30,725 nt of DNA from Chrysochromulina tobinii. Taxonomy: Eukaryota; Haptophyta; Prymnesiales; Chrysochromulinaceae. The stretch spans positions 1 to 30,725 of the forward strand of contig JWZX01002748.1 of assembly GCA_001275005.1 (NCBI GenBank), given 5' to 3'. Below, piece by piece: positions 2,085 to 28,742 of the stretch. The notes under the pieces are model-generated. The model did no database searches. It was not told where the DNA came from and saw only the letters and a program-made list of their open reading frames with translations. Position numbers and translations under genes: made by a program. Within the stretch, counting starts at the first letter, position 1, and each line of letters begins with the position of its first letter.

Positions 2085-3435
2085 ATGCTGCGGCTCGTAA
2101 TAGCTGCCGCCGTCTGCGCGGACGCGGCTGTTGCTTATTCGACCAGCGTGCGACCGTCTCCTGGTTATCCATCGGCAGTGACGACTGGTAAGGTGCTTCT
2201 CGTTGCGTCGCAAAGCCGTCGTGCCGAACCCATGGTGATGACTGTAGCCCCGGCGGAGACTGCTCCAAAGAAGAGGCGTGGCACCCCGTGGCCTACACTG
2301 CTGCGCTTGTGCAAGCCAGACTTACCGTTGCTCTTCGTCGCCTTTGTGTCGCTTACCATCGCGGCTTCCTGCGATGCGCTCCTGCCAGCGTTGCAAGGGG
2401 CCGCTCTGAACACAGCCCTCGGACTTGAGACGCGTGGTGGCGCGTCATTGAGCTTGGCACTGCTCCAAATGGCTGGGGTCGGCGTGGCCACTGCCATCTT
2501 TACCGGGCTACGCGGCTTCACCTTTTGGCTCTGCGGCGCGCGCTTGGTCAAGCGCCTTCGGGCCACGCTCTTCGAATGCCTGCTGCAGCAGCCGCAAGCG
2601 TTCCACGATGAACAGGGGCCTGGTGAGCTCTCGTCACGGCTTGCCACCGACTGCGTCAAGCTGGGCGACGTGCTCTCGCTCAACGTCAACATCGTGCTGC
2701 GTCAAGTCATCCAGTCGCTCGCGGGCATCGCTATCATCGTCCGTATCAACGCGCGGCTCGCAGCGCTCGTGCTGTGTGGCGTGGCCATTCGGAGCGTGTT
2801 CGCGCACTACTATTCCAAGTTCTCGCGGCGCGTCTCGCAGGAGATGCAGGACGCGCTCGCGACCTCATCGGGCGTGGCCGAGCAGTGCTTCTCCCTCATC
2901 AAGGTGGTACGCTCGCATGGCAACGCGGCGTATGAACGGGAGCGCTACGTCCAGCAGCTCAACCGACTCCTGCAGCTGGACACTGAGAGGGGGGCGGTGT
3001 ACGGCTTCTCGCGAGTCTTCAATGGTGCCGTGAACGCGTTCCTGCTGTTTGGCATCCTGACGCTGGGCGCCGCGTTCGTCTCGGCGGGCCTCTTGCCCAA
3101 GGAGAGCCTCACCTCCTTCGTACTCTACGTGACCTTCATCTCGGAGGCGTCGAGTGACGTGGCGGACCAATGGAGCCGCATCCAAGAAGCCCTTGGAGCG
3201 GCGACTGAGGTCTTCGACTACCTCGAACCGCGCCCGCTCGACCTTGGGCTGAGCGCTGTACTGGCGCCCGTTGGCTCCGCCAGTGTAACCACCAGCGGGC
3301 TCGTCGGTGTAACCACCAGTGTAACCACCAGCGGGCTCGTCGGTGTAACCACCAGTGTAACCACCAGCGGGCTCGTCGGTGTAACCACCAGTGTAACCAC
3401 CAGCGGGCTCGTCATCCCTCTAGTGAGCACGGGCG

Positions 3436-7136: not shown

Positions 7137-7567
7137 TAGCCGTGCATAGGGTGGGGGTAGCTTTTTCGGAGGGTCCGAAGCTTTTACCGTTTTACGAGAA
7201 TCTCGCCAAGTGGCAACTTTTACCGCTATACGCCCATATCCTGTGAGTCACTTTTACCGTTTTACCGCAATCAAACACTGAGTGGACGGAGGCTCCATGT
7301 CCGAAGGAGTGCGTCTCGGTCGGGCACGCAATGCAGGAATACAGGACCGGTGAAGTCTCCTGTTCATGAATTACATTCACGCTCGGCGGTTTAAGCGAAT
7401 TTTACTGGCGTGCTTTCAGTAAAAGTGGCTTTCACCCTGCTTTTACCCTGGATACGGAGGCACGAGGACTTTTACCGTTTTACGCGAATCATGTGCAGCT
7501 GCACACTTTTACCGTCTTACGCCAAAATGCCCTCACTTTTACCCTACCCCCACCCTATGTAGCCGTG
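7137..7567. mobile_element. hAT-like non-autonomous transposon (MITE), 415 bp plus 8-bp target duplication
   Basis: The element at 7145-7559 begins with CATAGGGTGGGGGTAG (7145-7160) and ends with its exact reverse complement (7544-7559), a perfect 16-bp terminal inverted repeat. It is flanked on both sides by the same 8 bases, TAGCCGTG (7137-7144 and 7560-7567), a target-site duplication. An 8-bp duplication and a terminal repeat starting CA with a G-rich run fit the hAT superfamily. Inside are repeated copies of CTTTTACCGTTTTACG and close variants at about 7181, 7217, 7251, 7469 and 7507, resembling the subterminal transposase-binding repeats of hAT elements. No transposase frame is present, so it must depend on an enzyme encoded elsewhere. 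The perfect ends and duplication suggest a young insertion. Confidence 0.9.
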
Positions 7568-9717: not shown

Positions 9718-11415
9718 ATGGCTGAGCGCGCGAGGGCTTCAGCCAGGGACGATGTGTCGCACGGCGCTGGCGCCTTTCTCAACGACGTGCGCTCCCAGAT
9801 CTCTGACTCGGCAGAGTTCCGCTCGCTGGCGGGCGCGCTCTACAGCGGCGTGCGAGACAATCTCCGTGAGGTGGGCCAGCCGAGCTTTGGCAAGCTCTCG
9901 CAGGCTGAGCAGGAGGCGCTCGTGAACCGCGTGCGCACGCAGCTGCTTGGGACCGAGGTCTACGCCCGCTGCCGTGACGCGACCTGGCGCGCTCTCGATG
10001 CAGCGCTCGACGGCGCCTCCGAATCGCTGGTCTCCAAGCGCGGCGGCAACATGGGTGGCCGGCGTGGCCCGGGCCCGACGTGGCCGACGCAAAATGCGGA
10101 CGACGACGAGGGCGATGAAGGTTCGATAGGCGTCCAGCGCAGTTCGACCAAGGTCGGCGCGATCCTCGAGTTGGCGAGTGTGAGCGCCTCGTCGCTGCTC
10201 GACCGCTGGCCAGCGGCGCAGGACGAGCTGCTCTGGCTCCTCAACACGGAGCTGCCCACGGCGCTGCGGCACTCGATGTGGCACCTCAAGCTGCGCGCAC
10301 CCGCCGCGCGCGCCGAGTACGAGCGCAAGCGCTCCGAGTCGGTCTTTGCCACCCTCTCGCTGCGCGACGGCGCCATCAGCCAAGGCTGCCAAGCGACGTT
10401 GCAGCGGATCGCGCCGCAGCTGCTGAGCCAACTCAACTTCCACAAGACCTGCCTCTCGTACGCGGACTCGCTGCGCCCGCTGCCGCCGGCGCCGAGCGGC
10501 TGGCCCTCGACCATCCTCGACGCCTCCTCGGGCGCCCACGACGGCGCGGCGGCCACGGGTGGCGACGGCGCCCGCGACGGCGCCAAGGGCGGTGCCGGCG
10601 GCGCCAAGGGCAGCGCCGGCGCCATCCACACAGCGCCCCTCGAGTCCTTCTGGGGTGTGCCGCTGCTGCGCGTCTTCGTGGGCAGTGCGAACGCCACGCG
10701 CTCCGCGGCCGAGCAGGCGGAGCTCGAGGCGACGTTAATTGAGCACTTCATCGCCCTCGTGGCGATGCCCAAGCCTCTCTTAGGGCTTGCGGCGGACAAG
10801 AAAGGAGGCAAGGCGGACAAGAAAGGCAAGGCAGCGCTCGGGCCTTCCTCGGCAGAGGCACTGCTCGGCACGGTCGACGAGGAGCTCGCCAGCAAGCTCG
10901 TTGGCATGCTCGGCATCACCGGCATCGACGCCGTCCTGCTCCCGTATGCGCAGCGTCTCGCGGTAGGCTTCTTCTCACTCGGACTGCCTATGATTGTCTC
11001 TGATTGCGTCTGAGGGGCTCTTGATTGCCTCCCTCATCAGGTGGGCTTCTTCTCCCTCGGACTGCCTCTGATTGTCTCTGATTGCGTCTGATGGACTATT
11101 GATTGCCTCCCTCATCAGGTGGGCTTCTTCTCCCTCGAAGTGGCCACCTTCGTCTGGGACTTATGCCTCCTCGCCGGCTGGTCGGCGCTGCAGCCGGCGC
11201 TCTGCTCGGCGCTCATCTGCTTGCGCGAGTCGCTCATCACGTGCGCAAGCGCCACGGAGGTCAAGCTCATCCTCGCCGCGCAAGGACCCCAGATTACAAT
11301 CTCCCAATTGCAGCGCATGCTCACCGCTCACTTCATGGCAGGCATCCGGAAGGAACTCGCGGCGCCGCCGCCACAGCAGGCCTTTGAGCTCACGCCTGGC
11401 GGCTCGTGGAGCTAG
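9718..11415 (+). CDS. Putative TBC (Rab-GAP)-like protein, spliced
   Basis: Exon 1 is 9718-10962 and exon 2 starts at 11119, joined in phase 0. Using the first stop in exon 2 (11413-11415) gives 513 residues. An alternative splices from a GT at 11406 to an AG before 11485 or 11497 and continues to 11695; that frame ends in a charged, coding-like tail (LEALKELEEARRKVRE), and I consider it plausible. The segment LNTELPTALRHSMWHLKL resembles the start of a TBC domain and FVWDLCLLAGWSALQPALCSALICLRESLI resembles its last helices. I do not see the catalytic arginine and glutamine fingers, so GAP activity is doubtful. Gly/Ala- and Lys/Gly-rich inserts interrupt the middle. Its head-to-head position with DRC3 hints at a flagellar role, which is inference only. 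Confidence 0.6.
10963..11118 (+). repeat. Intron made of two tandem 78-bp copies
   Basis: The intron is two 78-bp units, 10963-11040 and 11041-11118, each starting GTRGGCTTCTTCTC and ending CCTCCCTCATCAG. The first 19 bases of the unit recur at 11119 as the start of exon 2. Either unit alone could be an intron. The core contains CTCTGATTGCGTCTGA, the unit seen in other introns of this window. An in-frame TGA in each copy rules out a read-through exon. Confidence 0.9.
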
Positions 11416-11695
11416 TTACCGCAGGCTGTGCCTACGCATCGATGTGGTGCGCGTGCGCGGACGCGGTGCGCGATGCTGGGGAAGTCAGTGGGGAAGTGCG
11501 GTTCACACCGTGACACACCGCGGTCGTACCGATTGCGTCGCCCCCACCGTGGAGGCTGAAGCGGAGCGGCCGCGCGCACCGCGCGCGGCCGCGCCTCTCG
11601 CGGTCGCGCCCGTTCTGGAGGCGCTTAAGGAGCTAGAGGAGGCGCGACGAAAGGTGCGAGAGACCCGGGGGTCAAAGACTCCCAACTACAACTAG
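11416..11695 (+). other. Possible extra exon of the TBC-like gene
   Basis: A reading frame from about 11497 to the TAG ending at 11695 looks coding: acidic and basic residues alternate in a helical pattern near its end. It joins exon 2 in phase if the GT at 11406 is the donor and the AG at 11495-11496 (or 11483-11484) is the acceptor. If it is not used, this stretch is 3' untranslated sequence. Confidence 0.4.
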
Positions 11696-11942
11696 AGGAT
11701 TATAGACTGTGCAAAACGACGCGTCGAGATCAACTCATAATTTTGCGTCGATCGACAGCGGCGGAGAGAGTTACCGCGGCTTTGGGCAGCCAAGACACCG
11801 AACATTGACACGTTGCCGCCCCGGCAGCGGGGACACCTATTTTAATCATGACTGTGGTCGTGCCAAGAACCGTCCACTGCCATCGCGGTGACGGCACTGG
11901 CCCACTGCGACGTGTGGGCACCGGAGAGCCGTTGCGAGCTCA

Positions 11943-12548
11943 TCAGAGCGGTACGAAGTGTGCGAGGTTGAGGGCGCCGAGGAAGAGGCAGAAGATGGTC
12001 GGGATTGTGAGCCAGGTCCATACGGGCCAGAAGGCCACTGTGAACGCTACGAGGCTGCTGACGGCGCATATGGTAGCCACGGGAATGGCGCGCGGACTGT
12101 AGTCCTCCCATTCGCCCGGAAATTTGAGAATGTACTTGACCCACAGGATGAGGTAGCCGGCCACCAGGCACCAGCCGCCAAAGCCGGCGAGACCAACGTT
12201 GAAGGAGAAGCTGCGGTCAGGACGTGCGTGACGCTGTGGTCAATCTTGGATCAGGGTTCGAGGCGTGGCCTGCAATGCACAGTGCGCGCGCGTTTACCGA
12301 TTGAGCTGTCGCTTCTCGTCGTGCGGCGGATGGCCGTCCAGGATCACCTCGTAGATCTCCGTGTAAGCGCAGATGAAGGATGCGATCACAATCCATAGCA
12401 GCGCGTGCAGCTTTGCGAGGATGTAGGCGAGCCACTGATCGGTCTTGCTCTTGTACTCCTCTTCATCATCGTAGTCCGCGCCCGCGGATAGCGGTTTGAG
12501 CTCAACGGATGCGTATTTCTTTCGCTCGCGCGGGACGCTTGACGCCAT
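11943..12548 (-). CDS. TMEM128: TMEM128-family four-helix membrane protein
   Basis: Exon 1 is 12298-12548 and exon 2 is 11943-12210, joined across an 87-bp GT-AG intron (12211-12297) in phase 2, giving 172 residues. An ATG 18 bases upstream (12566) is also possible. A charged N-terminal region of about 40 residues precedes four hydrophobic helices. The second half, with PRAIPVATICAVSSLVAF and VWTWLTIPTIFCLFLG, matches the TMEM128 pattern of an IP motif, a VW-S/T-W-F turn and a final helix ending in a phenylalanine-glycine pair. The spliced junction reads QLNRFSFNVGLAGFGGW, restoring the second helix that neither exon carries whole. TMEM128 proteins are small, poorly understood ER-type membrane proteins, so no biochemical role can be given. 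Its intron lacks the repeat unit of other introns here. Confidence 0.75.
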
Positions 12549-12723
12549 GTTTTTGCGAAGTGCCACGACGACGCTCGAACGGCGCGCGACTGCCCGCCTA
12601 AACGGCAGGCACCTTTACGTACACCAGACGTTCCTACTCAAACCCACTTGGGGTTTTTCACAGTCCACTTCACGCCCGAGAGCCCCCCGAGTCGATCGAG
12701 CAACGCCCATTCGGACGAGGAGG

Positions 12724-13602
12724 ATGCCAGGCTCGACAACGAGCCAGGTTTCATCGACGAGCAGCGTGACGACGATCAGCACAGCGTCGCGCGTGGTGCG
12801 ACCCATTCGTCACCATGCAGTTGAGCCGGGTTGGGCGCGAGCAGGCAATGGGCCACTCTACATTGGCCCATGGCAGGAGTTTGCGCTCAGCCGCGCTCTC
12901 AACCAACGCCCGAGGCGCGGCGGTGGCGCATCGAACACATTCGCGGCACCATTCGACCCGACATGCTCCGAAGCCTCGTCCACCGCCTCGGGCTTCTCTG
13001 CAGCCAGCAGCGCCTCCACGCGACCAGCCGATGGCCCGGAAGAGCTCGCCCAGTTCGTCGCGGCGTTCAAGGAGATGGCGAGCACGATGGACGAGGAGGG
13101 CGCGCGCAACCTTCTCATGTGGTCGCCTCTATTCATGCCGACGGTCGAGAATCTGATGAAGAACAGCTCGCGCAGCATGGGCGGACCCGCGCGCAAGCCA
13201 CGTCTCAAGGCTGGCATGCCGCGCGAGGTGACGCACCCGGCTCCAAACGCACAGGCCGACGCTGCAGCGGCGCAGCGACAGGCGCACATGGCCAAGCTGC
13301 AGGCGCTCTACATGACAGGCGCAGTGCCGCCGCCGCCACACGAGACACGCATGCCGCCGCTGCATTCGGCGGTGCCGCCGCAGCATTCAGCCTGTCCTGG
13401 TGGGTATGGTTCGGCGTTGACACCCGAGATGCACATCTCCGCAGCGGGATCGACCACAAGCTACGTGGATATTTACCCGCGGCGTACCCCGCCACGGGCA
13501 GCATGCGTATCCGCCCTCAACGCCGGCCTCAATGACGACTGGGAAGAGGAGGTCGACGACCTGCTCACATGGACGACTCAACTTCCTACACCCGACTTGT
13601 AA
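12724..13602 (+). CDS. Hypothetical protein with acidic C-terminus
   Basis: I do not recognise this protein. The open frame reaches back to 12496, but its first part is antisense to TMEM128 exon 1, so I prefer the ATG at 12724 (292 residues). The start is uncertain and a short intron near it cannot be excluded. The middle has one likely folded helical segment, with PEELAQFVAAFKEMASTMDE and NLLMWSPLFMPTVENLM, set between Ser/Thr/Ala-rich and Pro-rich regions. The last 25 residues are acidic with embedded hydrophobics (DDWEEEVDDLLTWTTQL), a pattern like transactivation or partner-binding motifs; this is speculation. It is divergent from TMEM128 across a spacer of about 175 bp. Confidence 0.5.
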   Translation: MPGSTTSQVSSTSSVTTISTASRVVRPIRHHAVEPGWARAGNGPLYIGPWQEFALSRALNQRPRRGGGASNTFAAPFDPTCSEASSTASGFSAASSASTRPADGPEELAQFVAAFKEMASTMDEEGARNLLMWSPLFMPTVENLMKNSSRSMGGPARKPRLKAGMPREVTHPAPNAQADAAAAQRQAHMAKLQALYMTGAVPPPPHETRMPPLHSAVPPQHSACPGGYGSALTPEMHISAAGSTTSYVDIYPRRTPPRAACVSALNAGLNDDWEEEVDDLLTWTTQLPTPDL

Positions 13603-14006
13603 GCGCGCGACCCGGCGGGTGGCGCGTGTAAGGTATTTCAGAAGAAACAAATGATACATTCAACGTGGCACCAACCATCCAACGTTAGAGCAGATATAGA
13701 TGATATAGGTCGGGGGCCCGCTCGTGCTGGCTGCCGGGCCGGGGACAGAACACGTACCGACGTCGACGAGCGCGCCGAGCGGGGCCGGGCGCGGTCGGTG
13801 CGAGCGCGGCGAGGACGAGCTGGTCGAGCGCGTGCGGCGTGGCGGCTGGCGCTGACGGAGGAATGGCGTGCGGTGGCTCTTCTCGCCCTAAAGGGACCTC
13901 CCAACCGAACCGCCTGCGCCGCCGCCAGGCCACTACCAGGCCTCTGCGCTCAGCGCGCGGCGCGTACAGGGTATCCGAACTCTCTCTGCCAGCGCCATCT
14001 GGCGGC
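13603..14006. other. Spacer between convergent genes
   Basis: This lies between the 3' ends of the hypothetical protein and the GT8 gene. Frames on both strands are Arg/Ala-rich translations of GC-rich DNA with no motif. A short AT-rich patch at 13630-13700 may hold polyadenylation signals. Nothing else is seen. Confidence 0.5.
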
Positions 14007-16950
14007 TCACAAGGCGTCGTTGGGCAGCGCACGACGTTCACCACCCAACGTGAGTCGCAATGAGCGCGTCAAGTTGTCACGGCATGCACGTATGTCTCTT
14101 CGGCACGACACGCGCGAGATCGTGACCTGCGGCTCGAAGATGTGAAGCATTTCCTCGGAGGCAACGGCCAAGCCTCCGTCATCGCCGTCGCCGCCGTCGC
14201 CGCCGTCGCCCCCGTCGCCACCCATACCTCCCATACCTCCCATGCCACCCATACCTCCCATACCTCCCATGCCGCCCGCGAACCGCCCAGAGCCTCTGTG
14301 GAAGTACGCGACCCGTGCACCGCCCACCGCTTCCAGTGCGCTCCGCACGTCAACGCGATCCATCGACGCTCCCGAACCGCTCCCAAAGTGCGACGCTCGC
14401 GACGACGCTCGCCCAAAGGTGCGCTCGTCGCTCGCCGCAGCGCTCGTACCGTCCACGCCCCGAATGTCGGGCGCAGGACAGCTTGGCCCATCAGCGCCTG
14501 CGCTGCTGCTGCCGCCACTCCCGGCAAAACGACCCTTAGTACAACGGCGACTGCTGATCCATACGCAAGGCTTCGACTCGGTGTGCGCGAGGTGGCACTC
14601 GACCTCGTTGGCGATGGACGAGCACCAGCCTGTCTGTTGGCTCACCATCTTGCAGCCACCGCCCGCGCAGCAGCCCGCGGCGGCACCTCCGCCTCCACCT
14701 CCTCCGCCTCCTCCGCCTCCTCCGCCTCCACCACCACCGCCCGGCAGTAGCGCGAGCGGAAGCGGCGGCCCGAGGAGCTCGTCGAGCGCGATCCGAAAGA
14801 AGAGGAAGCGCGAGGCCGTTGGGCACACGCAGGGCAGCATCGGTGCATTGGTCTCGTGGCGCAGGAGCCGTTTCACAAAGTGAATGAACACTTCCGTCGC
14901 GGACCGCCCAGCTGCCCACCGATGCCACTGGGCCAGCAGGGCGGCCCGCGGCGGTAGCGTCGAGGTGACGGAGGCGTAGATGGAGCGCCAGGTGCAGAGC
15001 TCGCGCTGTTGGAACGAGTCGCGCGAGCAATCAGGACGCACTCAAGGCACGATCAGGACGCACTCAGGACGCACTCAGGGCGCGCTCAGGACGCACTCAG
15101 GGCGCACTCAGGGCGCACTCAGGGCGCACTCAGGGCGCAATCAGGTCGCAATCAGGTCGCAATCAGGGCGCAACCAAGGCGCACTCAGCGTACCTGCTGG
15201 CACGAGTCGATGGGCGGCGCCGCCATCGCCCATCCTCTGCGCGCGCATCGCTTCCCGGTTCGGTTGTAGCGCACGCACACCTTGCGCCCGAACGGCATCA
15301 GAGCATCGGGGTGCGGCTCGAGCCGCCGATCTCGCACGGACGCGTACGAGGCGCAGCCGAAGCTGTCGTTCACGAAGCCCTCCGAGACGGCGCGTGCCAC
15401 GTCCGCTGACGCGCCGTCGTGAAGCAGCAGCACGAGGTCGAGAGGCCGCGGCGTTGTCTTCGGACGCGCCTCTGGTGGCAGGAGCGGAGCATACTCGACG
15501 AAGGCGGTGGGCATCCACGGCTTGCGTTCTCCGGTGTAGTGGAGCACAGCGGCGCGTTCGATACGGCGCGCGCCTACGAGGTGGATCATCTCATGCATCG
15601 GGATGTGGCCTAAGCCATCCAACTGCACCCAGCCGCCATGCCCATCGTCGCCACCGACGATGCCACCACCGACGCCACCGACACCACCGGTGCCCATGCC
15701 CTCCGTCACGGCGTGCTGTCCAAAGCATTGCACCTTGCCTTGGTAGACGAGGTACGCCACGCCTAGGCCATACAGGAGCGAATCGGGCGCCACGACTCGC
15801 TCGGTCAGCAGCTGTGCCGCCACACGCTCAAACCGTGCAGCGAGTCGGTGCTCGCGATGGCGCTTGAGCTCAAGGAGCGTCGCCCCGAAGTTCCACACGG
15901 TGTGGTCCCTCTGGATGGGCGCCTGCAGCGCGCGGCCGAGGGGTGCCCAGTGCGCCGGCTGCAGCCCGTGCTCGGACCGCCCAAACCAGGCCGAGTAGTT
16001 CTCGTGCGAGATGGACCATCCTACACACCTGATGAGGGACGCAATCAGATGCAATCAGAGGTCATCAGCGGCGAGAGCGAGATGGACCATCCTACACACC
16101 GCCGGCTCCATGCGAACGTATCGCAGTTGGCCGCCAGCAGCGTCCCCGGCTGCTCCAATGGCAGCTCGAGGAGGTGCCGCAGGCTGCGGCGCACGACGAC
16201 GTCGTCGTCGAGCAGCACGATGCGCGCCGTCTGTGCGAGGAGCGGCAGCTCCGCGAGGAAGAAGCGCAGGTGGTTGAGGCACAGCGCGTGCTTGATGTGA
16301 CGCGAGGCGGGCTGCACTAGCGTCGGTCCTGAGTGCCGTCCTGTGGGCGCCGCGAGTGCAGACGCGTTGCGATCGAGGGTGCACACACTCCGTGGGGCAA
16401 AGCCACGCGCTTCGAGCACTCGGACGACGTCCGAAGCCAGGAGCGGCAGCAGACGGCACGACTCGAAGCGAGGCTGCAGTCCCACTTGTGGGGCGGTCGA
16501 CACGAACAGCAAGTCCACCTCGTCCTTCTGCCTGCATAGGCTGCGAAGGGTCACCTCTGCAGCCCGTTCGAACCGGTCACTCAGCATGACGGCGAGCGGC
16601 CGCTGGCCGCGGAGCCGCTCGCACGCGGCGTGGTTGTCGGAGCATGCGGCAGGGTGGTCGGTGCACCTCCTCCCTGGCACGCTGGCATCGCACCACCACC
16701 CCTGCCCTCCCGCGTGGATCGACGGCTCCGAGGCTGCGCGCATCTTGTTGAACCCAAACAAGCCGACTAACACGGTGCTGACAAGTAGAAGTAGGCGGCA
16801 GCGCGGGGCTTGAGCGCGCGTCGTCACCTTGGTGGACGCTTGGTCGACCGCGAGCCTCCACTTGGCGCGCCCGTCGTCGGTGTCGCGACTAGAAGTGGAC
16901 GCTGCGCGCCGCAGTCTGCTAGACTTGGTGGATCCGAGGAGCGCTGGCAC
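14007..16950 (-). CDS. GT8-like glycosyltransferase, membrane anchored, three exons
   Basis: Exons are 16100-16950 (5' end unresolved), 15194-16028 and 14007-15005. Introns of 71 bp (phase 2) and 188 bp (phase 0) join them into about 894 residues. The start is uncertain: 16950 is GTG and no in-frame ATG lies upstream before a stop, so a small 5' exon is probably missing. A single hydrophobic helix (about 51-67) makes it a type II, probably Golgi, protein. GT8 hallmarks are RIVLLDDDVVV (243-253, the metal-binding DxD region), HTVWNFGATLLEL (about 326-338, the usual N-x-G-V block) and HYTGERKPW (about 447-455, the family's H-[FY]-x-G-x-x-KPW). These suggest a retaining sugar transferase, possibly of galacturonosyltransferase type. 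Glycine-rich inserts break the catalytic domain. The C-terminal 300-400 residues, with a Gly17 run, a Cys-rich patch and GGM repeats, match nothing I know. Confidence 0.77.
14160..14280 (-). repeat. GGM and GGD codon repeats in the GT8 gene
   Basis: On the coding strand a 9-bp unit reading Gly-Gly-Met is repeated about six times, followed by Gly-Gly-Asp repeats. It makes a flexible, nearly featureless segment close to the C-terminus of the glycosyltransferase. Confidence 0.85.
15006..15193 (-). repeat. GT8 intron 2: array of 11-bp units
   Basis: Between donor GTACGCTGAG and acceptor CCAACAG the intron is almost wholly an array of about 15 units of 11 bp, CTGAKTGCGNC, read on the coding strand. 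Neighbouring units differ by one or two bases. The flanking exon frames fit only if this segment is removed. Confidence 0.9.
16029..16099 (-). repeat. GT8 intron 1: 71-bp intron with exon-boundary duplication
   Basis: On the coding strand the intron starts GTGTGTAGGATGGTCCATCT, and the same 23 bases begin the next exon, so intron plus exon form a 71-bp-period duplication. The rest contains CTCTGATTGCATCTGATTGC and ends CCCTCATCAG, the same ending as the intron in the TBC-like gene. Confidence 0.9.
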
Positions 16951-17455
16951 GATGAGAGTCGATCCGCCGATCGTGAGAGAGGCACCTCGCGATCGCGCAA
17001 GGTCCCATGTGGTTGTGGAGGAGGACTGCCATTTTCAGACCGAGGTGTGAATAGGAGAGACTGACTGTGGACAGAACCGACCTCACATCTCAGCGCACGA
17101 GCACACGACATTTCGACACACTGCTCGGGACGTCGTAGTGAGCGCACACATCTCCGATCTCGCGACTTCCCGAGGTAATATGCCGCTGGGTCACGCCGCG
17201 CCCCCATACAGGCTGTTTCGTAGTCGCCGCGGCGAGCAGGAGGGATCGACGCTTTTGCCCATATATTACATCCAATCTTGTGAGGGGAGATTGGAGGCCG
17301 CGCCTCCGCACCAGAGACACGTCTGCCGACCGCCGCCTTCGCGTCCATGCCGCAGCGGCATCGCGTCACGCCGCTTCCCTCTCGACACCCCAGAACAACA
17401 AGAGCCGCCACCGTCGTCCTTTCCGGGGCGCCAAGCGAGCTCACCAGCGAGCTCA
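16951..17455. other. Spacer between USP7 and GT8, probably including a missing GT8 5' exon
   Basis: Both neighbours run on the minus strand, so this holds the USP7 3' flank and the GT8 5' region. Candidate ATGs for GT8 on the minus strand at 17032 and 17008 are out of frame with the known exon, so reaching it would require an intron, which I could not place with confidence. No other feature is seen. Confidence 0.45.
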
Positions 17456-20400
17456 TCAGCCATGGATCTTGATCGGCTTGTCGGCGTAACCACCCCTGCT
17501 TGCATTCTTTTTGCGACCGGCTCCGGGCGAGTGGGCGTGCTCAAGGCCAAGATAGTCGTCCCAGTTGCCATAGTTGTCGTGCTTGCGGAAGCGGTTTTTG
17601 ACGATCTCGTCGTCCTCGAGATACTCGACCCGCCCAAAGGAGATGACGGCGAGCTTCCACTTCGCGAGCTCCTCGTCGCTCAGGCTGAGCTTTGCCTGGA
17701 TGCGCGTACGCACCGAGGCCGTCGTCTCGGCCTCGCCAAGGAGCAAGAGGAAGGGGTCGCCGAAGTTGTGCGTCATGTTCATGCGAGAATCGCGATGGAA
17801 GTGGCGCACATGCACTAGCTTGTCCTCGGGCCCGGCCCGTAGCTCTTCCTCGGGGATCTTCTCCGCGCGGATCGTCCAGTATTGATCGTTGATCGAGTCG
17901 ATGTCGTCCGACTCCGCGAAGATTTTGTATATCCGGTGGTTGAAGACCTCCATCAATCGCACACGGCGCGGCGCGAGCGCGAGCGGGTGCGCCTGCGCCG
18001 CCGCCTGCGCCGCCTGCGCCGCCCCCGCCGCGCCCTCCACATCGCTTGCGGGCAGCTTGCTCAGCTCGAGCACGAGCGCGTCAATCGCCTGCCCCACGTT
18101 GCTCTCCTTGTGCAGCAGCAGGTTCACCGTGCACACCTCCTCCGAGGCGCCGTTGTGCCACGAGACTTTGAGCGCCTTTTTGGACTCGTACTCCTGCAGC
18201 GGGATCTCGAGCGCCTCGTAGAAGAGCTGATCGGTCGACTTTTGCATCGATGTGAGCATCTCCTCGAGCGTGCTGACGCCGCGGAACTTGACAGGCTGCG
18301 GCTTGGGCAGGTCGGAGAAGGGATTGTGCATCGTGAGCCGCAGGTGGTCGGCCCGCAGCGACAGCGCCTGCCCGATGCGACCGGTGACCTGGTCGTACGT
18401 CCAGCGCTTATCCATCGCAATCTGGATCGCGCGCTCCTTCTCGCGCACGCCCTGTCCTCGTTGCTGCTGCGGCGGCAGCTTGCGCACGTGCACAACCACG
18501 CGGTTCTTGACGTGCTCAAAAAACTGGCTGATGGTCAGCAGCGGGTCGCGCTCGCTCTCGAGGACGACATTGCGCGGCGGCGACTTCGCAGCCGCGGTGG
18601 TGACCAACGCACCGTCGCCGCTACCCTCGGCCATGTCCACGTCGGCGGGCACGGCTGCAGGCACGGGCGGAGGCGGCACCATGGGACGTGCCAACTGATA
18701 CACAAGGATGTCGCCGCTCTGCAGCTCGCAATCCTTGAGGCTCTTGCCATGGACGATGGGCTCGAAGCGCACTGAGGTCTCAAACTCGACCTCCTCGTAC
18801 ACGACAAGCTCAGCCTCGGCCGAAAGCCCCTTGGCCTGGCGCAGCACGGGCAGCAGATCCGACAGCGTGTCGTGGCTGCTCGCCACGTGCGTGCACACGA
18901 AGGAGAGCTGCTCGCCCGCCGGCTCGTAAAACTTGAGGAACAGGAGCAGCTGGTCGGCGCCGAGCAGCGGATAGCCCTCCTCATCGGGCGCGACCGCATC
19001 GGGAGGGGGGATCTCGAACGGCATCGGGCGCGTCGTCACGGGCTCGAGGTAGAGCCGCAGCTCTGCTTGGAACTTGCCCGCGGGTGGCGGGTGGTCCTCC
19101 TTCACGTCCATCATGGCCACGTGGTCGTCATATTCCTGCTGCAGTGGCCGATCGGGCCGGAAAGTGTGGTTTTGCCGGCGTGCCCACATCCACAGCCGCT
19201 GCTCCGAGGGCCGCACGCCCGTCATGCGCCAGATCTCGTGCTTGAGCTGCAGCACCGTGTGCTCTTTCTTGATCCGGAGCGTCGCCACATTATCAGGGTT
19301 GACGAGGTCGAAGAAGCGTTCGGTGCCGATCTGCGCCTTCAGATCAGCGCTCGTGGCGACGCGTATCACAGTGTACAGGTGCGCCTCGAGTCTCTCCTTC
19401 TTCTTGCGCGTCTTCTCCTCTTGCTCCTTTTCGAGCGTGTGCCGCAGGTGCGCGGCGATGTCATCAGCGGTCACGTCAATGTTGATGTCGCCGATTGCGG
19501 ACTCGCGCACGTACACAAGCATGTACGCGGACGAGATCTTCGGATACTTCCATTGGGGCGTGTGCCCCGGGGCCGTGTGATGCTCGAGCCCGCCGTACTG
19601 CCCCTCGACCGCCTCCTTCTCCTTCACCTTGGTCACGCGCTCGTCGTCAAACTTAAACCACTGCTCCACGCCGAGCGGCCGAATGTAGGCATAGTAATGG
19701 CCGCCGTTGGGCCCTCCTGAGTGCACGAGCACCGAGTGCAAGTGGTACAGGTTGCGCACGGTCGGGTCGGCGTCCTCGGTGAAGTACTTGCGCCCCTCGC
19801 GGTCCATATCGAGCGTCGTCGGGAACTCGAAGCGCTCGTTGATCTTGGCCATCTGATCGGTGGTAAAGTCGTACTCAAAGCGGCGCAGATGCAGCGCGAG
19901 CACGGGCGGCATCGACGTGAACGCGACGCCCTTTTTGGCGTCCTGCTTGCCGTGCTTGTCCGAGTAGTACTGATTGTCGCCGTCGAGGGTCTCTTCCTTG
20001 ACGTACTCGTCGAGCGAGTCGTACAAGGTCTTGCACCCCTTGACAGGCATCTGCAGGTCGTAAAAGTCCTCATCGCGCGTCGACTTGTCCTCTACGTTGA
20101 TGCATGCGACGTAGTTGGTGAACTTACCGCGGAAGAGGTGTGCCATGGTGCCCTCAACTGAAGTGCCCTTCATCTTCTCCTCGAGCTTGTCGACGAGCAC
20201 GCGGTTGAGCTCCTGCACGTCGTGCTGCATGAAGGTGTCGTTCGTGTCCCACCCAAACGACTTTGTGAGCTGCTTGGTCGACACGGACGAGTCCGAGTGC
20301 TGTAGCTTGTAAAAGATGCGCTGGAGCGCGAGCGCAATCGACTGCTCGGGATCCTCGCCATCGGTCGTGTGCATGTGGTACACCGCCTTGCGAAAGTACG

Positions 20401-21576
20401 GGATGTGCGTCAGCGTCTGCAGCAGAGAGTTCATGTAGCAGGTCGCCCCCTGGTTTTTGAGGCCCACGTAGCCAGTCTCCTTCTTCGAGTCCCAATTCCA
20501 CCAGTTGACCTGCGCCTCCACACGCACGCGCGCCGAGATGACGAGCTTATCGTCCATCAAGAAGCCCGTACGCGAGTCCTTGAGCTCGGCGAGGGGCACA
20601 AACTCGCGGAAGCCCCAGTCGCAAGCGCGCAGCGTGAAGTGGTGGTCAGCATCCTTAACCACGGAGCGCTGAGGTTCCTTTTGATTCTGCACGGTGAGGC
20701 TGAAGTGCGCCTGGCGCGACCATCCTTGGGGCAGTGTGACCGAGTCGGCCACATCGAGGTACACGGAGAGCTGCTGCACGTTGTTGCCGCCCGGGAAGAG
20801 CAGGATGCGCCTGACAGCCGCGAGACACGCGAAGAACTGCCGTCAGCGGCAGGCGGCAGGCGGCGGCGGCGGCGGCGGCCGCGGCGGCGGCTTCGGCAGC
20901 GGCCGCGGCGGTGGCGGCGGCGGCGGACACGGCGGCGGCGATGGCACTAGAGGCTGATCAGGGGGATGGGAGGATGGGGGGGTGGCCGAGGCCGTGGAGC
21001 GCTCGAGCGCAAGATGCCTATAGCTGCGCGTGGCGGACGTGGCAGGCGCCACGGCGCCGGGGCACGTGCAGCGAGCGCGGGCGGCCCCTATCTGCGTGCG
21101 CAATCTGGAGCGTAGACGCGTGAGGCAGCCATCGCGGCCATCGCCGCCGGTGCGCCCAGCTCCCCCGCGCCCAGGTCGGGTCGCGGCGCGCCGGATGCGC
21201 CAGGCCACAGAGCGCGCTCGCGCACCAGTTGTACTGGCCGCTCTGGAAGACCGGAGAGTACAGCTTCAGCTGCTTGATCTTCGAGTAGTTCTCGATGGTC
21301 CATGTGTAATCTCCTGTGAGAGCCTCTTCCGAGGCGTCCTTGTCGACTGCGGGTCGGGGGATGGATCAGGCCGCGGTGTGCCGCGTCAGCAGCAGAGCCC
21401 GAGTGCGTGTGCCCACCCACAAGGCCGCAGGCCCTTGAGGAATTCTCAGTCAAGGCAAGTCGCAGCTCACCGTCCATTTCGTCTGCCTCTCCAGTGGTGG
21501 CGGCCGGCACCTGCACGACATCGGTCACCTCGGTGGTGTCCGCCGGCACCTCGACTGCCTCCGTCTGCTGCGTCAT
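17456..21576 (-). CDS. USP7: MATH-domain ubiquitin hydrolase, USP7/UBP12 type, three exons
   Basis: Exons 21471-21576, 21226-21313 and 17456-20810 join into 1182 residues. The junctions rebuild the MATH domain: GDYTWTIENYSKIKQ, then QYN-W-RILLFPGG, which neither exon carries alone. Order: short acidic N-tail, MATH domain (about 35-165), USP catalytic domain (about 180-500), then about 650 residues of ubiquitin-like repeats. Catalytic residues are all present: Cys189 in NQGATCYMNS, His436 in GGHYYAYIRP and Asp453 in WFKFDDERV. The C-terminus DDYLGLEHAHSPG and final KPIKIHG follow the conserved USP7/UBP12 tail, which in USP7 activates the catalytic domain. It removes ubiquitin from nuclear and other substrates; the MATH domain recruits them. 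Length is close to human USP7 (1102) and plant UBP12. An Ala-rich insert (AAGAAQAAQAAAQAH) interrupts a ubiquitin-like repeat. Its introns lack the repeat unit common in this window. Confidence 0.95.
20811..21225 (-). other. USP7 intron 2 with GGC-rich tract
   Basis: A 415-bp intron with donor GTGCGCGAGC and acceptor GCGGCTGTCAG on the coding strand. Bases 20850-20940 are a nearly pure GGC/GCC tract. The 157-bp intron 1 (21314-21470) has no notable repeat. Confidence 0.85.
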
Positions 21577-22113
21577 GTCGGTTCGCTGTTTGCAAGCGCG
21601 CGCGGCGCGCTCGGCTAGGTGCGACCGCAGAGCAAGTCTTCTCTCTGCTGCACAGTGAAAGGTCCGTACACATGAAATTACCATTGGCTGTGAAACTCTT
21701 TTGCAAGTGCTCACGCTAGCGACGCTCTTCACGAGTCGACGTGTCACATAAACTCCGGCGGGGAGGCACACGGGTGGTATATGAGAGACGGGTCCAGCTG
21801 CTGCTCACGCGTGTAGGCGTGTTACGCCCCCGCGGCGCTCGCGCGTCCGAGCCGCTGCAGCCGAGGCGGCTGCCAACAGCGGCCCTATTGGTACTACAAT
21901 GTTTACATTCGGGGGAGGAGGTGGGCACCGGTCTGGCGCGCAGATGCTAGCCCGGCGCTCTCTCTTCCCCCACGCTTCGCCGATTAACGGCCTGTGTTAA
22001 TACGGGTGTGTTAGCACGGGTGGTGTCGGCCACACCTCCGTCCATAGCGACAGTGACCCTCGTGCTTGGGGGTCCGGAGCAACGTGCGTTGTGTTGAACG
22101 CTTTAGCTTTTTC
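21577..22113. promoter_or_regulatory. Divergent intergenic region between USP7 and the coiled-coil gene
   Basis: This 537-bp stretch separates two divergent starts and should hold both promoters and 5' untranslated regions. Bases 21870-22020 are less GC-rich, with CATTACA-like and TTAATA patches. No ORF here resembles a protein family. Confidence 0.4.
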
Positions 22114-24230
22114 ATGTCTGCTCGTGGCAGTCCCAGGCTGAACCTTACTTTCGCGCACCACCGTGTTGCGCCCAACCCACCATCCGGCGTGGGCTCGGCC
22201 AGGCCGCAGTCTGCACGCACTAGCAGCGACCCTTCGCCGCCTGACGTCTATCCCAGCGTCGGACTGCAGTCCACCGTCACATGCGGTGGATCGGTTGAAC
22301 CCACCTCAGCGGCGAGCCGTGCCTTTGGCGGCACCAACCTGCTCACGACGGCACGAACAGCAGCGAGCAGCGGTGGCGCTGTCGCCGGTGCGAGCGCTGA
22401 GCATCATCATCAGCAGCAGCCGCAGCCGCAGCCGCAGCAGCAGCAGCCCACGCAGCCAGCGGCGGCTGCGGGTGGCGCGTGCTCCGTGTGGGCCGCGGCC
22501 AGCAGCAGCCCGGCCGAGCCGCCGAAGAAGGCGGGTCTGGGCGGGATGGGCGGGCTCGCGGCGCGCTTCCAGCTCGCTGCGGCCACGGCTGGTGTGGGCG
22601 GCAAGGGCATCAAGTCCATCGCCGACGTGGCGAAGCCGGCGATCAAGGCCAAGGGTGGACTGAACGCATTGCTCACGCGCTCGCCGCTCGATGGGGCGCT
22701 GACAGAGTCGACCCGGGCCATCACCGATGCCAGGCGCGCAATGGCCGAGGGCGAGATCAACCTGAACAAGCTGTACGCGCTGGACCATGACGGGATGATG
22801 ACTGCTCGAGGGCTGCTCGTAGGATCGAACAAGGCGATTACGAAGCTCATCAGTGCGAGCGAGGCACTCATGACGATTGCGGACGAGGCGCGTAAGAAGC
22901 TCGAGGATGATAAGAAAGCGCTCCGGGACGCGGGCAACCAGAGCATCCGACAGCTGACCGCGCAACGCGAGATGCTCGCGACGACGCTTCTGGCCGAGCT
23001 CGCGTGCATCGAGCAAGACACGACCTTTTCGATTGTGGCGCTGCTGGGCGCGAACCAGAAGCTGGAGCGCGACGTCGCCTTGGGCCACGAGCGCAAGAAG
23101 CAGGTTGAGGAGATGCTCGGGAGCTCGCTCGGAGATCTCGGCACCAAGCACACGCAGTACGTGGCCGACCATGAAAAGTACCACTGAGTGCTACTGAGTA
23201 CCACTGAGTGCCTCTGAGTGCGCCACTGAGTGCTACTGAGTACCACTGAGTACCACTGAGTGCGCCACTGAGTGCGCCACTGAGTGCCTCTGAGTGCCAC
23301 TCTGAGTGCCACTGAGTGCGCCACTGAGTGCCTCTGCGTGCCACTGAGTGCCGTTGAGTGCCTCGCGTGCAGGTACGTAGCCAACGCCGAGCGTACCGAG
23401 GAGCGCCTCTCTGCGGAGATCGGGCGGCTCTGTGGTGTGGTGGAGCATCTCAAGCTCGAGATGGCGCGCCAGGTGCGATCTCCCTTGATTATGATGAGGA
23501 GGAGGAGCGGAGCATCTCAAGCTCGAGATGGCGCGCCTGGTGCGATCTCTAGAATGCGTCAGATGGCCTCGGATTGCGTCGGATGGCGCCTTGTCTTGCC
23601 GCTGATGGCCTCTGATGGCCTCGGATCGCCTCTGACTGCCTCGTGCAGGCGCGCGAGTCGACCGAAGCGTACAACACGCTCCAGCGCAACATGTCCAACG
23701 CCCTCGCCGACAAGCAACAGGCTATCCATGAGCGCGACACGACCATCCTTGAGTTACGGGCTACTCTCAGCGGCACCACCTCTTCGCTCAACTCGAAGCT
23801 GCATGACCTCGCGCGCGAGAAAGCGGAGCGCGAGCAGCGGCTTGAGAAGGAGAAGCAGGAGCTCGCCGAGAGCGGCCGGCGCGCGACGATGGAGCTCGAC
23901 CAGCGACTGAGCATGCTCCGCATTGAGAAGGAGCAAAAGGAGCAGGCCATGGCCCAGGAGCTCGAGCGCTCGCATCTCGAGAGCGTCAAGCAAGCAGAGA
24001 CGCTCAAGAGCAAGATCGAGAAGATGCGCAAGCTGCAGGAGCTTGCCCTCGGCGGCCTCGCTGGTGAGGACGGCTCGCCCCAAACGACCGGCAAGCCGAA
24101 AGCGCCGTCGACACGCGGCCGCCAGCTTCTCTACTTCGAGGCACTCAAGAACAAGAATGCCGAAAAGTCGTCGATTTCGTGGCGGGGCAACGACGTGTGG
24201 GCGCACGAGCAGATCAAGCAAGGGACATGA
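22114..24230 (+). CDS. Unknown coiled-coil protein, three exons
   Basis: I do not recognise the family. Exons 22114-23177, 23373-23472 and 23649-24230 join (phases 2 and 0) into 581 residues. The frame opens upstream at 22066, but the ATG at 22114 is the more natural start. Residues 1-150 are disordered, with a His/Gln/Pro-rich run (about residues 108-128: EHHHQQQPQPQPQQQQPTQ). From about 175 to 540 the protein is largely helical, with long heptad-like stretches such as AREKAEREQRLEKEKQEL and a C-terminal coil. Exon 2 supplies YVANAERTEERLSAEIG, continuing the coil across the splice. A structural or cytoskeletal role is plausible but not shown. The two introns belong to the repeat-built class described in the findings. 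Confidence 0.75.
23178..23372 (+). repeat. Coiled-coil gene intron 1: array of 10-12-bp units
   Basis: After donor GTACCACTGAGTG the 195-bp intron is about 17 units of CTGAGTGCNN(NN), 10-12 bp each, ending CTCGCGTGCAG. The octamer CTGAGTGC is identical to that in GT8 intron 2. Splicing restores HEK-YVANAE across the junction. Confidence 0.9.
23473..23648 (+). repeat. Coiled-coil gene intron 2 with a duplicated exon-intron boundary
   Basis: Bases 23442-23482 (31 bp of exon plus 10 bp of intron) recur at 23509-23549 inside the intron, with the donor context CAG|GT altered to CTG|GT. The rest carries units such as CGGATTGCGTC, CTGATGGCCTC and CTGACTGCCTC and ends TCGTGCAG. Confidence 0.9.
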
Positions 24231-24327
24231 GAGAAGAAGACATCTTCAGAATGTGTGAAGCTCACATCAGTTTCAGAGAGAAAACGGTAGGAATCCTATT
24301 CACGGACGCGGTCAACCTCGAAAATTC

Positions 24328-25560
24328 ATGCCGCTCTACCAGCATGAGATCGCGGCCGACGGCGCGGCGTTCGAAGCCGAACTCGAGATGGTTCGACGCG
24401 AAATGATTCGTCCGCCAAACGAGTCGTTCATTTCACTTTTCGCCGAGCTGGACGCATTAGTTGCCACTGGCAGTAGGCAGTCGTTGCAGTCGTTGCAGAA
24501 GATAGAACCGGCGGCGCAGCGGCGGGCAGCGCTGCTGCGCATGGGCTCGATTGCCGCCTCGATGACGCAGGTCCGCCTCTATGCAGCAATTGCGGCGCAG
24601 CCAAGCGTGCACACCATCTGCGAGATTGGCTTCAATGCCGGCCACTCGACCGCCGTCTGGCTCTCGTCCAACAAGCACGCTACGGTGGAGTCCTTTGACC
24701 TTTACAAGACGCGAGCGTCACACGCGGCGCTCCATCTATTGCAGCAGCGGTTTCCGGGCCGCCTCACAGCCCATCGTGGCGACAGCCTCTCCACCGTGGC
24801 GCGAGCGAGGCTCCCGCGTCGGTGTGATTTGGTGCATGTGGACGGCCGGCACTCATTCCGGCACGTTGTGGCCGACGCGCTCAACATGATTCCCTTAGCC
24901 GCTCCGACAGCCATCTTTCTCTTCGACGACCAGTGCAGGGCCTCCTCGTGCGACGCCGGGTCCACAGTCGCTGGTGAGCCAACGCTGGCGACGTGCGAGC
25001 TCGAGAACGCGAGATTCTTGCAGGTGAAGGCCACTGATGGCCGTCTGATTGACCTCGGATTGCCTCTAGTAGCGTTCACATCCTCTCTCTCTCTCTCTCT
25101 TGATTGATTGACCCCGGATGGCCTCTAATAGCGTTCGCTTCTCTTTCTCTCTGTGTGTGGCGACCTACAGCCGATGAGGCTGATTGACGACAGCGCGCTC
25201 CAACAGCGCGCCGCCTTGAGCGCTGCATTGGACGGCACCAATCAGTCGGCGCCCGCCTCGGCATCGCTCGTGCGCGTAGGGCGGCGCTACTGCAGCGTGT
25301 ACCAACTCGGTATCGAAGGCGCGCGACTCCAAAGCACGCGCGGCGGCGACGCTGCCGAGCGCCGTGGCGAGCGCGCGGCAGGAGGAGGCGCCACCACGCC
25401 GCCGGCTGGCACCTTGCCGTGCATGCCGCGCTGCCGCCTCGTATGGGCGAGTACCGCCCTCGAGCGCCGATGGGCGAGCTACGCGTATGGGACCGGCTAT
25501 GAGGCGGAAAGGTGGCAGAAGGCGCTGCGCCCTCAATCGTGTATCTATGGAAATGTTTAG
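24328..25560 (+). CDS. SAM-dependent methyltransferase, Methyltransf_24 type, two exons
   Basis: Exons 24328-25023 and 25171-25560 join in phase 0 into 361 residues. The first exon contains a class I methyltransferase core: ICEIGFNAGHSTAVWL (97-112) is motif I, with the Glu and Gly-x-x-x-Gly-x-S pattern; VESFDLYKT (119-127) is the acidic motif II strand; CDLVHVDGRHSFRHV (166-180) carries the D-G-x-H signature of the family; and TAIFLFDDQC (about residue 195) follows. The second exon is weaker and Arg/Ala-rich, but opens with a plausible helix and a strand pattern (YCSVYQLGI) like the family's last strand. The substrate is unknown; relatives act on small molecules or sugars. It starts 97 bp after the coiled-coil gene, on the same strand. 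An N-terminal exon further upstream cannot be excluded. Confidence 0.75.
25024..25170 (+). repeat. Methyltransferase intron with 59-bp-period duplication
   Basis: The 147-bp intron contains a degenerate duplication, 25047 onward and 25106 onward, each reading GATTGACCYCGGATKGCCTCT followed by ARTAGCGTTC and a CT-rich tract. The motif TCTGATTGACCTCGGATTGC near the donor resembles the unit in the other repeat-built introns. Confidence 0.8.

Positions 25561-25956: not shown

Positions 25957-28742
<2,786 letters not shown>

Follow-up and report, generated by a model that had tools for sequence, protein, structure and literature searches.

Probable introner-type insertions with long target duplications and tandem-array inserts in the haptophyte Chrysochromulina tobinii

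Why should introns of unrelated genes in one alga be built of the same short repeat? The question is raised by a 30,725-nt stretch of Chrysochromulina tobinii (contig JWZX01002748.1 of assembly GCA_001275005.1, our contig C1590; hereafter the window), in which a first-pass annotation noted six introns in four genes (a TBC-like gene, a GT8 gene, a coiled-coil gene and a methyltransferase gene) with a common sense-strand unit and read them as introner-like. Sequence, gene finder and strand counts bear out the six positions and the common unit, and the introner-like reading is supported by in-register duplications of exon sequence, a shared 3′ terminus, a second (sister) cassette without tandem units and a long form of the element. 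We put at roughly 0.82 the probability that these introns are introner-type insertion families of one haptophyte lineage, in which a target-duplicating cassette became an intron and the arrays are later expansions.

Counts for the whole genome refer to an assembly of 53,154,812 bases (53.15 Mb) in 2,253 contigs. All others come from a sample made up of the window, 20 loci around matches to a pattern with an 11-nt period and six loci of 9 kb each, drawn at regular intervals of contig number (54 kb). Genes were predicted with a repeat-blind, self-trained finder that combines a three-periodic coding model with GT and AG matrices, a lower limit on intron length and a penalty for each intron; an initial finder was discarded because it over-split genes (2,401 introns, median 21 nt). 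Later tests used 269 introns, 126 with at least two units and 123 with none. The repeat-blind finder recovered four of the six window introns exactly (15006-15193 and 16029-16099 on the minus strand, 23473-23648 and 25024-25170 on the plus strand) and two in part, calling 10963-11118 as 11008-11118 and 23178-23372 as 23178-23306.

The double unit CTGANTGCNNCTGANTGC has 4,046 exact matches in the genome (1,861 + 2,185) and the 11-nt-period pattern has 87 (29 + 58); the reversed controls gave 0 + 0 for each. The six regular loci held nine arrays of at least three cores in 54 kb, eight of them in one locus, which scales, very roughly, to ~8,900 arrays genome-wide. The unit had been described as a single sequence, CTGAKTGCSYC, repeated at 10-12 bp with a main period of 11 bp. 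The spacing range stands, but the main period does not: successive cores are mostly 10 nt apart (387 pairs), less often 11 nt (114) or 12 nt (38). Instead of a single sequence we found a family of units (CTGATTGC, CTGATGAC, CTGATGGC, CTGAGTGC and CTAATTGC).

Equal frequency on the antisense strand was one of the outcomes that the first-pass annotation had named as contrary to its reading; introns do not show it. In predicted introns (locus L017 excluded), sense copies outnumber antisense copies by 311 to 2 for CTGATTGC, 202 to 2 for CTGATGAC and 132 to 1 for CTGATGGC. Within the six regular loci, the sense/antisense counts of CTGAYTGC are 17/0 in introns, 3/1 in exons and 0/2 in unassigned DNA; the intergenic half of this comparison is weak because only 26 kb of the sampled sequence is unassigned. 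By location, 222 of 279 arrays lie in sense and 3 in antisense within predicted introns, 16 + 16 within predicted exons and 22 in unassigned DNA, and the arrays in the latter two classes may be gene-finder errors. An element landing at any place would be expected to leave antisense copies in introns as well, so their lack is surprising.

Evidence for insertion lies in the flanks of the arrays. We searched, independently of gene models, for direct repeats not built of units (score ≥14) within 90 nt of an array, excluding L017 and L021 and taking the expectation from left and right flanks re-paired between different loci. A flanking direct repeat of the neighbouring sequence, 14-80 nt long, was found at 128 of the 279 arrays, against 1.6 expected. 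Counted by merged array site, the fraction is 83/196 overall, 4/12 in the six regular loci and 2/5 in the window. This test supersedes an earlier one in which array-like repeats were counted (75/165 at score ≥13, 6.5 expected). Gene models give a concordant picture, with in-register duplications at 17 of 126 array introns (0.35 expected) and 4 of 123 unit-free introns (0.2 expected).

The duplications stand in a particular relation to the predicted splice sites. At 61 of the 128 repeat-bearing rows (47 merged sites), splicing between a GT in the first copy and an AG at the matching offset, within the second copy or ahead of it, would leave exactly one copy of the duplicated piece; random exon pieces combined with real insert ends did so in 9.3%. 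The count takes in sites at the edge of the duplicated piece as well as within it. AG closes exon 1 in 54 of the 61 rows and GT opens exon 2 in 55. At the 47 sites the duplicated piece measures 14-51 nt (median 28), with a median identity of 0.974 and complete identity in 20; target plus insert measures 58-198 nt (median 81), and the lengths of target and insert are inversely related (Spearman −0.48).

Some sites appear to have undergone insertion or duplication more than once. Introns L011 5172-5349, L035 3871-4015 and L023 6006-6159 contain an extra copy of the joined exon 1-exon 2 sequence, in our interpretation an unbroken site that a second round left behind. In two others (L023 8041-8272 and L019 4304-4490, minus-strand coordinates), target copy and array recur together in tandem at least three times.

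The inserts also end alike. Of the 146 predicted introns that contain one unit or more, 32 end in CCTCATCAG, and the 18-nt 3′ terminus GATTGCNTCCCTCATCAG has 1,318 exact copies in the genome (reversed control 0), 884 of them followed directly by GT, as expected if the next exon opens with a duplicated target that begins with GT. A search for other shared words led to the non-repetitive sister cassette. Its 19-mer GCATGCAAGTGCTCACCAC occurs 17 times in the sample, with 12 copies in introns and 4 copies in predicted exons, every one of these in sense, and 1 copy in unassigned DNA; GCAAGTGCTCACCAC has 764 genome copies. The cassette with its pyrimidine-rich tail, GTGCTCACCACGGCGC-N4-30-CCCCACAG, has 473 genome copies, with GT next in 405 (reversed control 0). 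Flanking duplications (score ≥13) accompany 13 of 23 sampled tailed cassettes, compared with 9 of 452 re-paired controls; they are 18-37 nt long, and in 11 of the 13 a distance of 0-2 nt separates the 3′ splice site from the start of the second copy. The sister cassette at L018(-)4240 lies in a duplication of 37 identical nt.

L018 contains a long form, GTACGTTGATTGCCACTGATGACCTGCCTTGCATGCAAGTGCTCACC, of which slightly altered versions lie in L009, L014, L020 and L027; the first 24 nt of the L018 form recur in 30 exact copies across the genome. Two array units and the sister cassette are united in the long form, from which we infer a single element whose descendants were shortened or expanded. 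The 3′ end is retained in sister cassettes, and their upstream match to the long form varies, mostly 10-20 nt and up to 40. Sequence common to unrelated introns reaches the intron border on the 3′ side only, the 5′ part being target sequence or array. The inserts at L018(-)4034 and L020(+)7421 have an intact 5′ end; they bring the 5′ splice site, and AG comes from the target.

Five loci on contigs filed as viral matched the three cassette patterns. Four of these (L036-L039) were rejected, as no array of this kind was present in context. The fifth (L040 4499-4554) is a contig end with a sister-like cassette beside four CTGACGAACC repeats, and looks chimeric.

Pairs of similar loci were also considered as a source of alleles with and without an insertion. 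L018 and L021 were set aside for this purpose, being paralogues (~81-93% alike); between them, L018 4985-5237 marks a 254-nt length difference that is bounded by a 10-nt direct repeat and contains no cassette. L009 and L017 are near-identical over 6.5 kb, and the indels listed between them include no array difference.

Homologous proteins suggest that the duplicated pieces mark splice junctions. A HADHA homologue (L028) carries seven array introns inside its alignment to trifunctional enzyme alpha (5zqz, E 7e-189). Six of the seven junctions show no extra residues; at the seventh the finder leaves a repeat, GIDVTTHVV, and these 9 residues are removed if the intron is set by the duplication rule, at 92 nt rather than 65. 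For L012, which holds a CDC23 homologue, the same rule removes four residues left by the finder, giving RLDQ-VDTYSN beside RIEN-MDTFSN in human CDC23. Across the TBC-like junction in the window, LAVGFFS is read without intron residues in 10 of 15 aligned homologues. Among its relatives, P0123 (71%) and P0126 (63%) read across, P0122 stops at the junction, and P0121 and P0131 (97-98%) continue into the intron, each in a different version; these readings of P0121, P0131, P0123 and P0126 may derive from DNA or RNA, and P0123, which ends in VRLVP after Q, may have been read into an intron at another place. Taken with the in-register duplications, proteins that continue across the junctions point to new introns in coding sequence that was once continuous.

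A mechanism that would account for these features begins with an element, in its longest form approximately GTACG-TTGATTGCC-A-CTGATGACC-TGCC-TTGCATGCAAGTGCTCACCACRGCGC-(pyrimidine-rich)-CCCCACAG, or with a shortened part of it, that inserts into an exon and leaves ~14-51 nt of exon directly duplicated on both sides. Where the duplicated piece contains or abuts AG|GT, splicing from GT in copy 1 to AG before or in copy 2 would restore the old reading frame exactly, and the insertion would therefore be tolerated and become an intron. The element would bring a branch-site-like motif (CTGAT, CTAAT or CTCAC) and often a 3′ splice site (..CCTCATCAG or ..CCCCACAG), the target providing the 5′ splice site or else the two of them. 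Later, tandem multiplication of the CTGAT-type unit, in some cases with the target copy included, would give arrays with a spacing of 10-12 nt. The YTNAY of the cassettes is accordingly only a putative branch site; the U2 RNA has the ordinary recognition sequence, GTGTAGTATC.

Could the arrays have arisen within old introns, a branch-site-like repeat having expanded by slippage independently many times, so that the shared unit is convergent? Arrays are indeed uniform inside one intron and different between introns, and the sense bias is compatible with selection on a splicing signal; YTRAY, moreover, lies 12-45 nt from the 3′ splice site in 71% of array introns and 12% of array-free introns. 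Yet slippage cannot by itself yield in-register exon duplications, an 18-nt terminus before GT or a non-repetitive cassette, and we find it improbable as the origin of these introns, while it is probably how the arrays grew. An artefact of assembly or gene finding is very improbable indeed. It would find room in the short contigs, the self-trained finder and gene models built without RNA, but the duplication test is free of gene models, the pattern recurs on many contigs, and the TBC-like intron is also entered by P0121 and P0131, which stem from other assemblies.

Other alternatives keep the duplicated target and change the source of the insert. If no mobile element were involved, repair of staggered breaks might duplicate the overhang and capture filler from other introns, or exon pieces with AGGT might simply be duplicated in tandem. 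The varying length of the duplications, the frequent position of AG|GT within them and the repeated rounds at one site have all been reported from Daphnia neointrons, for which staggered breaks were proposed (PMC4202315), and tandem duplication has two fission yeast cases to its credit (PMC3629103). We hold this account possible, if on the unlikely side, in view of a filler that is non-random: one family, in sense, with the same 3′ terminus at hundreds of places. It overlaps the introner-type explanation and differs only in what brings the insert. More doubtful is RNA-templated insertion, in which excised intron RNA is copied from its 3′ end into nicked exon DNA to give fixed 3′ and shortened 5′ ends. 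The constant 3′ end and variable upstream extent of the sister cassettes, the missing antisense copies of the 19-mer and the variable target duplications agree with it; the intact 5′ ends and target-derived AG of L018(-)4034 and L020(+)7421 do not. Duplications of variable length argue against an ordinary fixed-cut transposase and are compatible with staggered breaks or nick priming, and fixed 3′ ends with varying 5′ extents fit nick priming, those two inserts excepted. A tentative and rather unlikely elaboration makes the cassette a spliceosomal 3′-end retroposon, copied from excised intron RNA, nick-primed into exons with duplications of 14-51 nt and then expanded into arrays. Were it true, introns here would be selfish elements spreading with the minimum that the spliceosome needs.

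Several observations weigh against the introner-type explanation that we prefer. Splicing of the array introns is deduced from homologous proteins rather than RNA, and in the CDC23 homologue the finder codes a 22-residue stretch without a counterpart in human CDC23 and calls a sister cassette coding, outside the alignment. Flanking repeats are absent from 113 of the 196 merged array sites, and 67 of the 128 repeat-bearing rows, nested and higher-order copies among them, fail the splice rule; age, nesting or another origin are possible causes. The 20 loci were chosen for containing the unit and are a biased sample, which the six regular loci are not. CTGAY in array introns is no more concentrated at branch-site distance than elsewhere in the array, and YTRAY is equally dense along it, so that the branch-site role stays putative; CT[CG]AY is only weakly concentrated at that distance in array-free introns. 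We noticed no terminal inverted repeats in the inserts viewed, and made no systematic search for them or for an autonomous partner. Finally, introner families characterised earlier have 3-9-bp duplications (PMC9860276), and the 14-51 nt at the 47 rule sites, in a test whose cut-off lay above pieces of less than ~12-14 nt, differ from this short target duplication of cut-and-paste introners.

How do these introns compare with known systems? Of 3,325 genomes surveyed, 175 have introners, which draw splice sites from their target duplications in various ways (Gozashti et al. 2022, PMC9860276), and the same survey, which took in 520 Tara genomes, describes an introner family with 4-bp duplications in a Tara Oceans assembly of Chrysochromulina sp. 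The introns described here resemble introners in that related introns occur in unrelated genes of an aquatic microbial eukaryote, one or both splice sites come from the target and message length is kept; they are unlike them in their long and variable duplications and in an insert that is often a tandem array. The pipeline of that survey was designed to drop most microsatellite growth in old introns and may therefore overlook array introns (PMC9860276). Daphnia neointrons, attributed to staggered double-strand breaks, likewise have direct repeats at opposite ends and repeated rounds at one site (PMC4202315). Their repeats are 4-12 bp, however, and no shared sequence family is reported in the text available; the repeats found here are longer, shorter ones falling outside our search. 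Tandem duplication of an AGGT-bearing exon piece is known as a mode of intron gain from single cases (PMC4974935, PMC3629103). As in that model, an AG|GT in the duplicated piece can supply both splice sites (61/128); the introns themselves, in contrast, are not made of duplicated exon. There the copied sequence was exon or intron, whereas here only the target copy derives from the exon and the remainder is a foreign insert shared by the family. Amoebophrya introner elements, also repeated introns of a marine protist with direct repeats at their borders, have 3-5-nt repeats, inverted repeats and non-canonical splice sites (PMC7789003), unlike the GT-AG introns of C. tobinii. For haptophytes, the accessible part of a Phaeocystales genome paper reports many simple repeats and mentions no introner (PMC12480563).

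We found no published work on array-built or long-duplication introners in haptophytes in a search conducted mostly without subscription papers and supplements. Tandem repeats in introns of Emiliania huxleyi appear to have been noted before. New here is the combination of long variable duplications, a portable cassette of putative branch site and 3′ splice site, array growth and genome scale: thousands of short related sequences resemble inserted splice-signal cassettes, and many genes appear to have gained introns by them. How introns come to arise in large numbers is a long-standing question, and genomes with bulk recent gain are few. Since 83 of the 196 array sites retain a legible target duplication, a single genome shows what the exon was before insertion, where the insert went in and where each splice signal came from. 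With this system one can test directly whether an intron needs no more than a branch site and a 3′ splice site; it links introners with the tandem-duplication and staggered-break models, and it suggests that searches setting aside repeat-built introns miss an introner class.

Site by site, the window introns (Table 1) differ in how much of this history they preserve. The three-unit insert of GT8 16029-16099 ends in the terminal sequence CCCTCATCAG. The second GT8 pair, 15194-15209 and 15006-15021, scores 11 over 16 nt, under the cut-off of the model-free test, and the 41-nt border repeat of the coiled-coil gene was read directly from the sequence, outside the rows of that test. No target duplication was found at 23178-23372 or 25024-25170; the latter, the methyltransferase intron, had been called a weak member of the set, and rightly so given its few units. 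The unit had been reported as lacking from TMEM128 and USP7 introns. This is true of the TMEM128 intron at 12211-12297 on the minus strand, which has no array; the USP7-like gene, for its part, is one open frame (17456-20779, minus strand), with no array listed nearby.

Table 1. Array introns of the window and the target sequences associated with them.
Feature	Position	Strand	Remarks
Array intron, TBC-like gene	10963-11118	+	two 78-nt modules, 10963-11040 and 11041-11118, each with end ..GATTGCCTCCCTCATCAG
TBC-like target sequence, intron copy GTAGGCTTCTTCTCACTCG	10963-10981	+	model-free duplication test
TBC-like target sequence, exon 2 start GTGGGCTTCTTCTCCCTCG	11119-11137	+	model-free duplication test
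TBC-like target sequence, further 19-nt copy opening second module	11041-11059	+	
Array intron, GT8 gene	16029-16099	-	71 nt = 24-nt target copy + 47-nt insert, three units, end ..GATTGCGTCCCTCATCAG
GT8 target copy 1 GGTGTGTAGGATGGTCCATCTCGC, supplies 5′ splice site	16077-16100	-	24 nt, identical to copy 2
GT8 target copy 2 GGTGTGTAGGATGGTCCATCTCGC, downstream exon after acceptor	16006-16029	-	
Array intron, GT8 gene, 11-nt units CTGAKTGCGNC	15006-15193	-	
GT8 second-site target copy 1 CGACTCGTGCCAGCAG, last 16 nt of upstream exon	15194-15209	-	
GT8 second-site target copy 2 CGACTCGTTCCAACAG, intron end, supplies AG	15006-15021	-	two changes relative to copy 1
Array intron, coiled-coil gene, CTGAGTGC type	23178-23372	+	
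Array intron, coiled-coil gene, GATGGCCTC type	23473-23648	+	
41-nt exon-intron border segment GGAGCATCTCAAGCTCGAGATGGCGCGCCAG|GTGCGATCTC	23442-23482	+	recurs in intron at 23509-23549, AG changed to TG
Methyltransferase intron, diverged internal duplication, few units	25024-25170	+	weak member

Among the best 120 of 5,115 matches to the USP7-like protein, environmental sequences reach identities of 99, 83 and 77%; the nearest relative with a species name is from Phaeocystis antarctica, at 66% (over 72% of the length), and Diacronema lutheri follows at 54%. The window holds repeats of other kinds as well. Upstream of the first gene, a palindrome-bearing unit GCGTATACGCACC lies in tandem with a period of 18-38-76 (136-300); a 36-nt tandem repeat followed by a 52-nt CGC run occupies 3280-3413, within an ABC-transporter-like open frame; and the non-coding stretch 7150-7560 has many occurrences of the word TTTTACCG / CTTTTACC. 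A 702-aa open frame at 25957-28065 contains a protein-coding tandem repeat of 66 nt.

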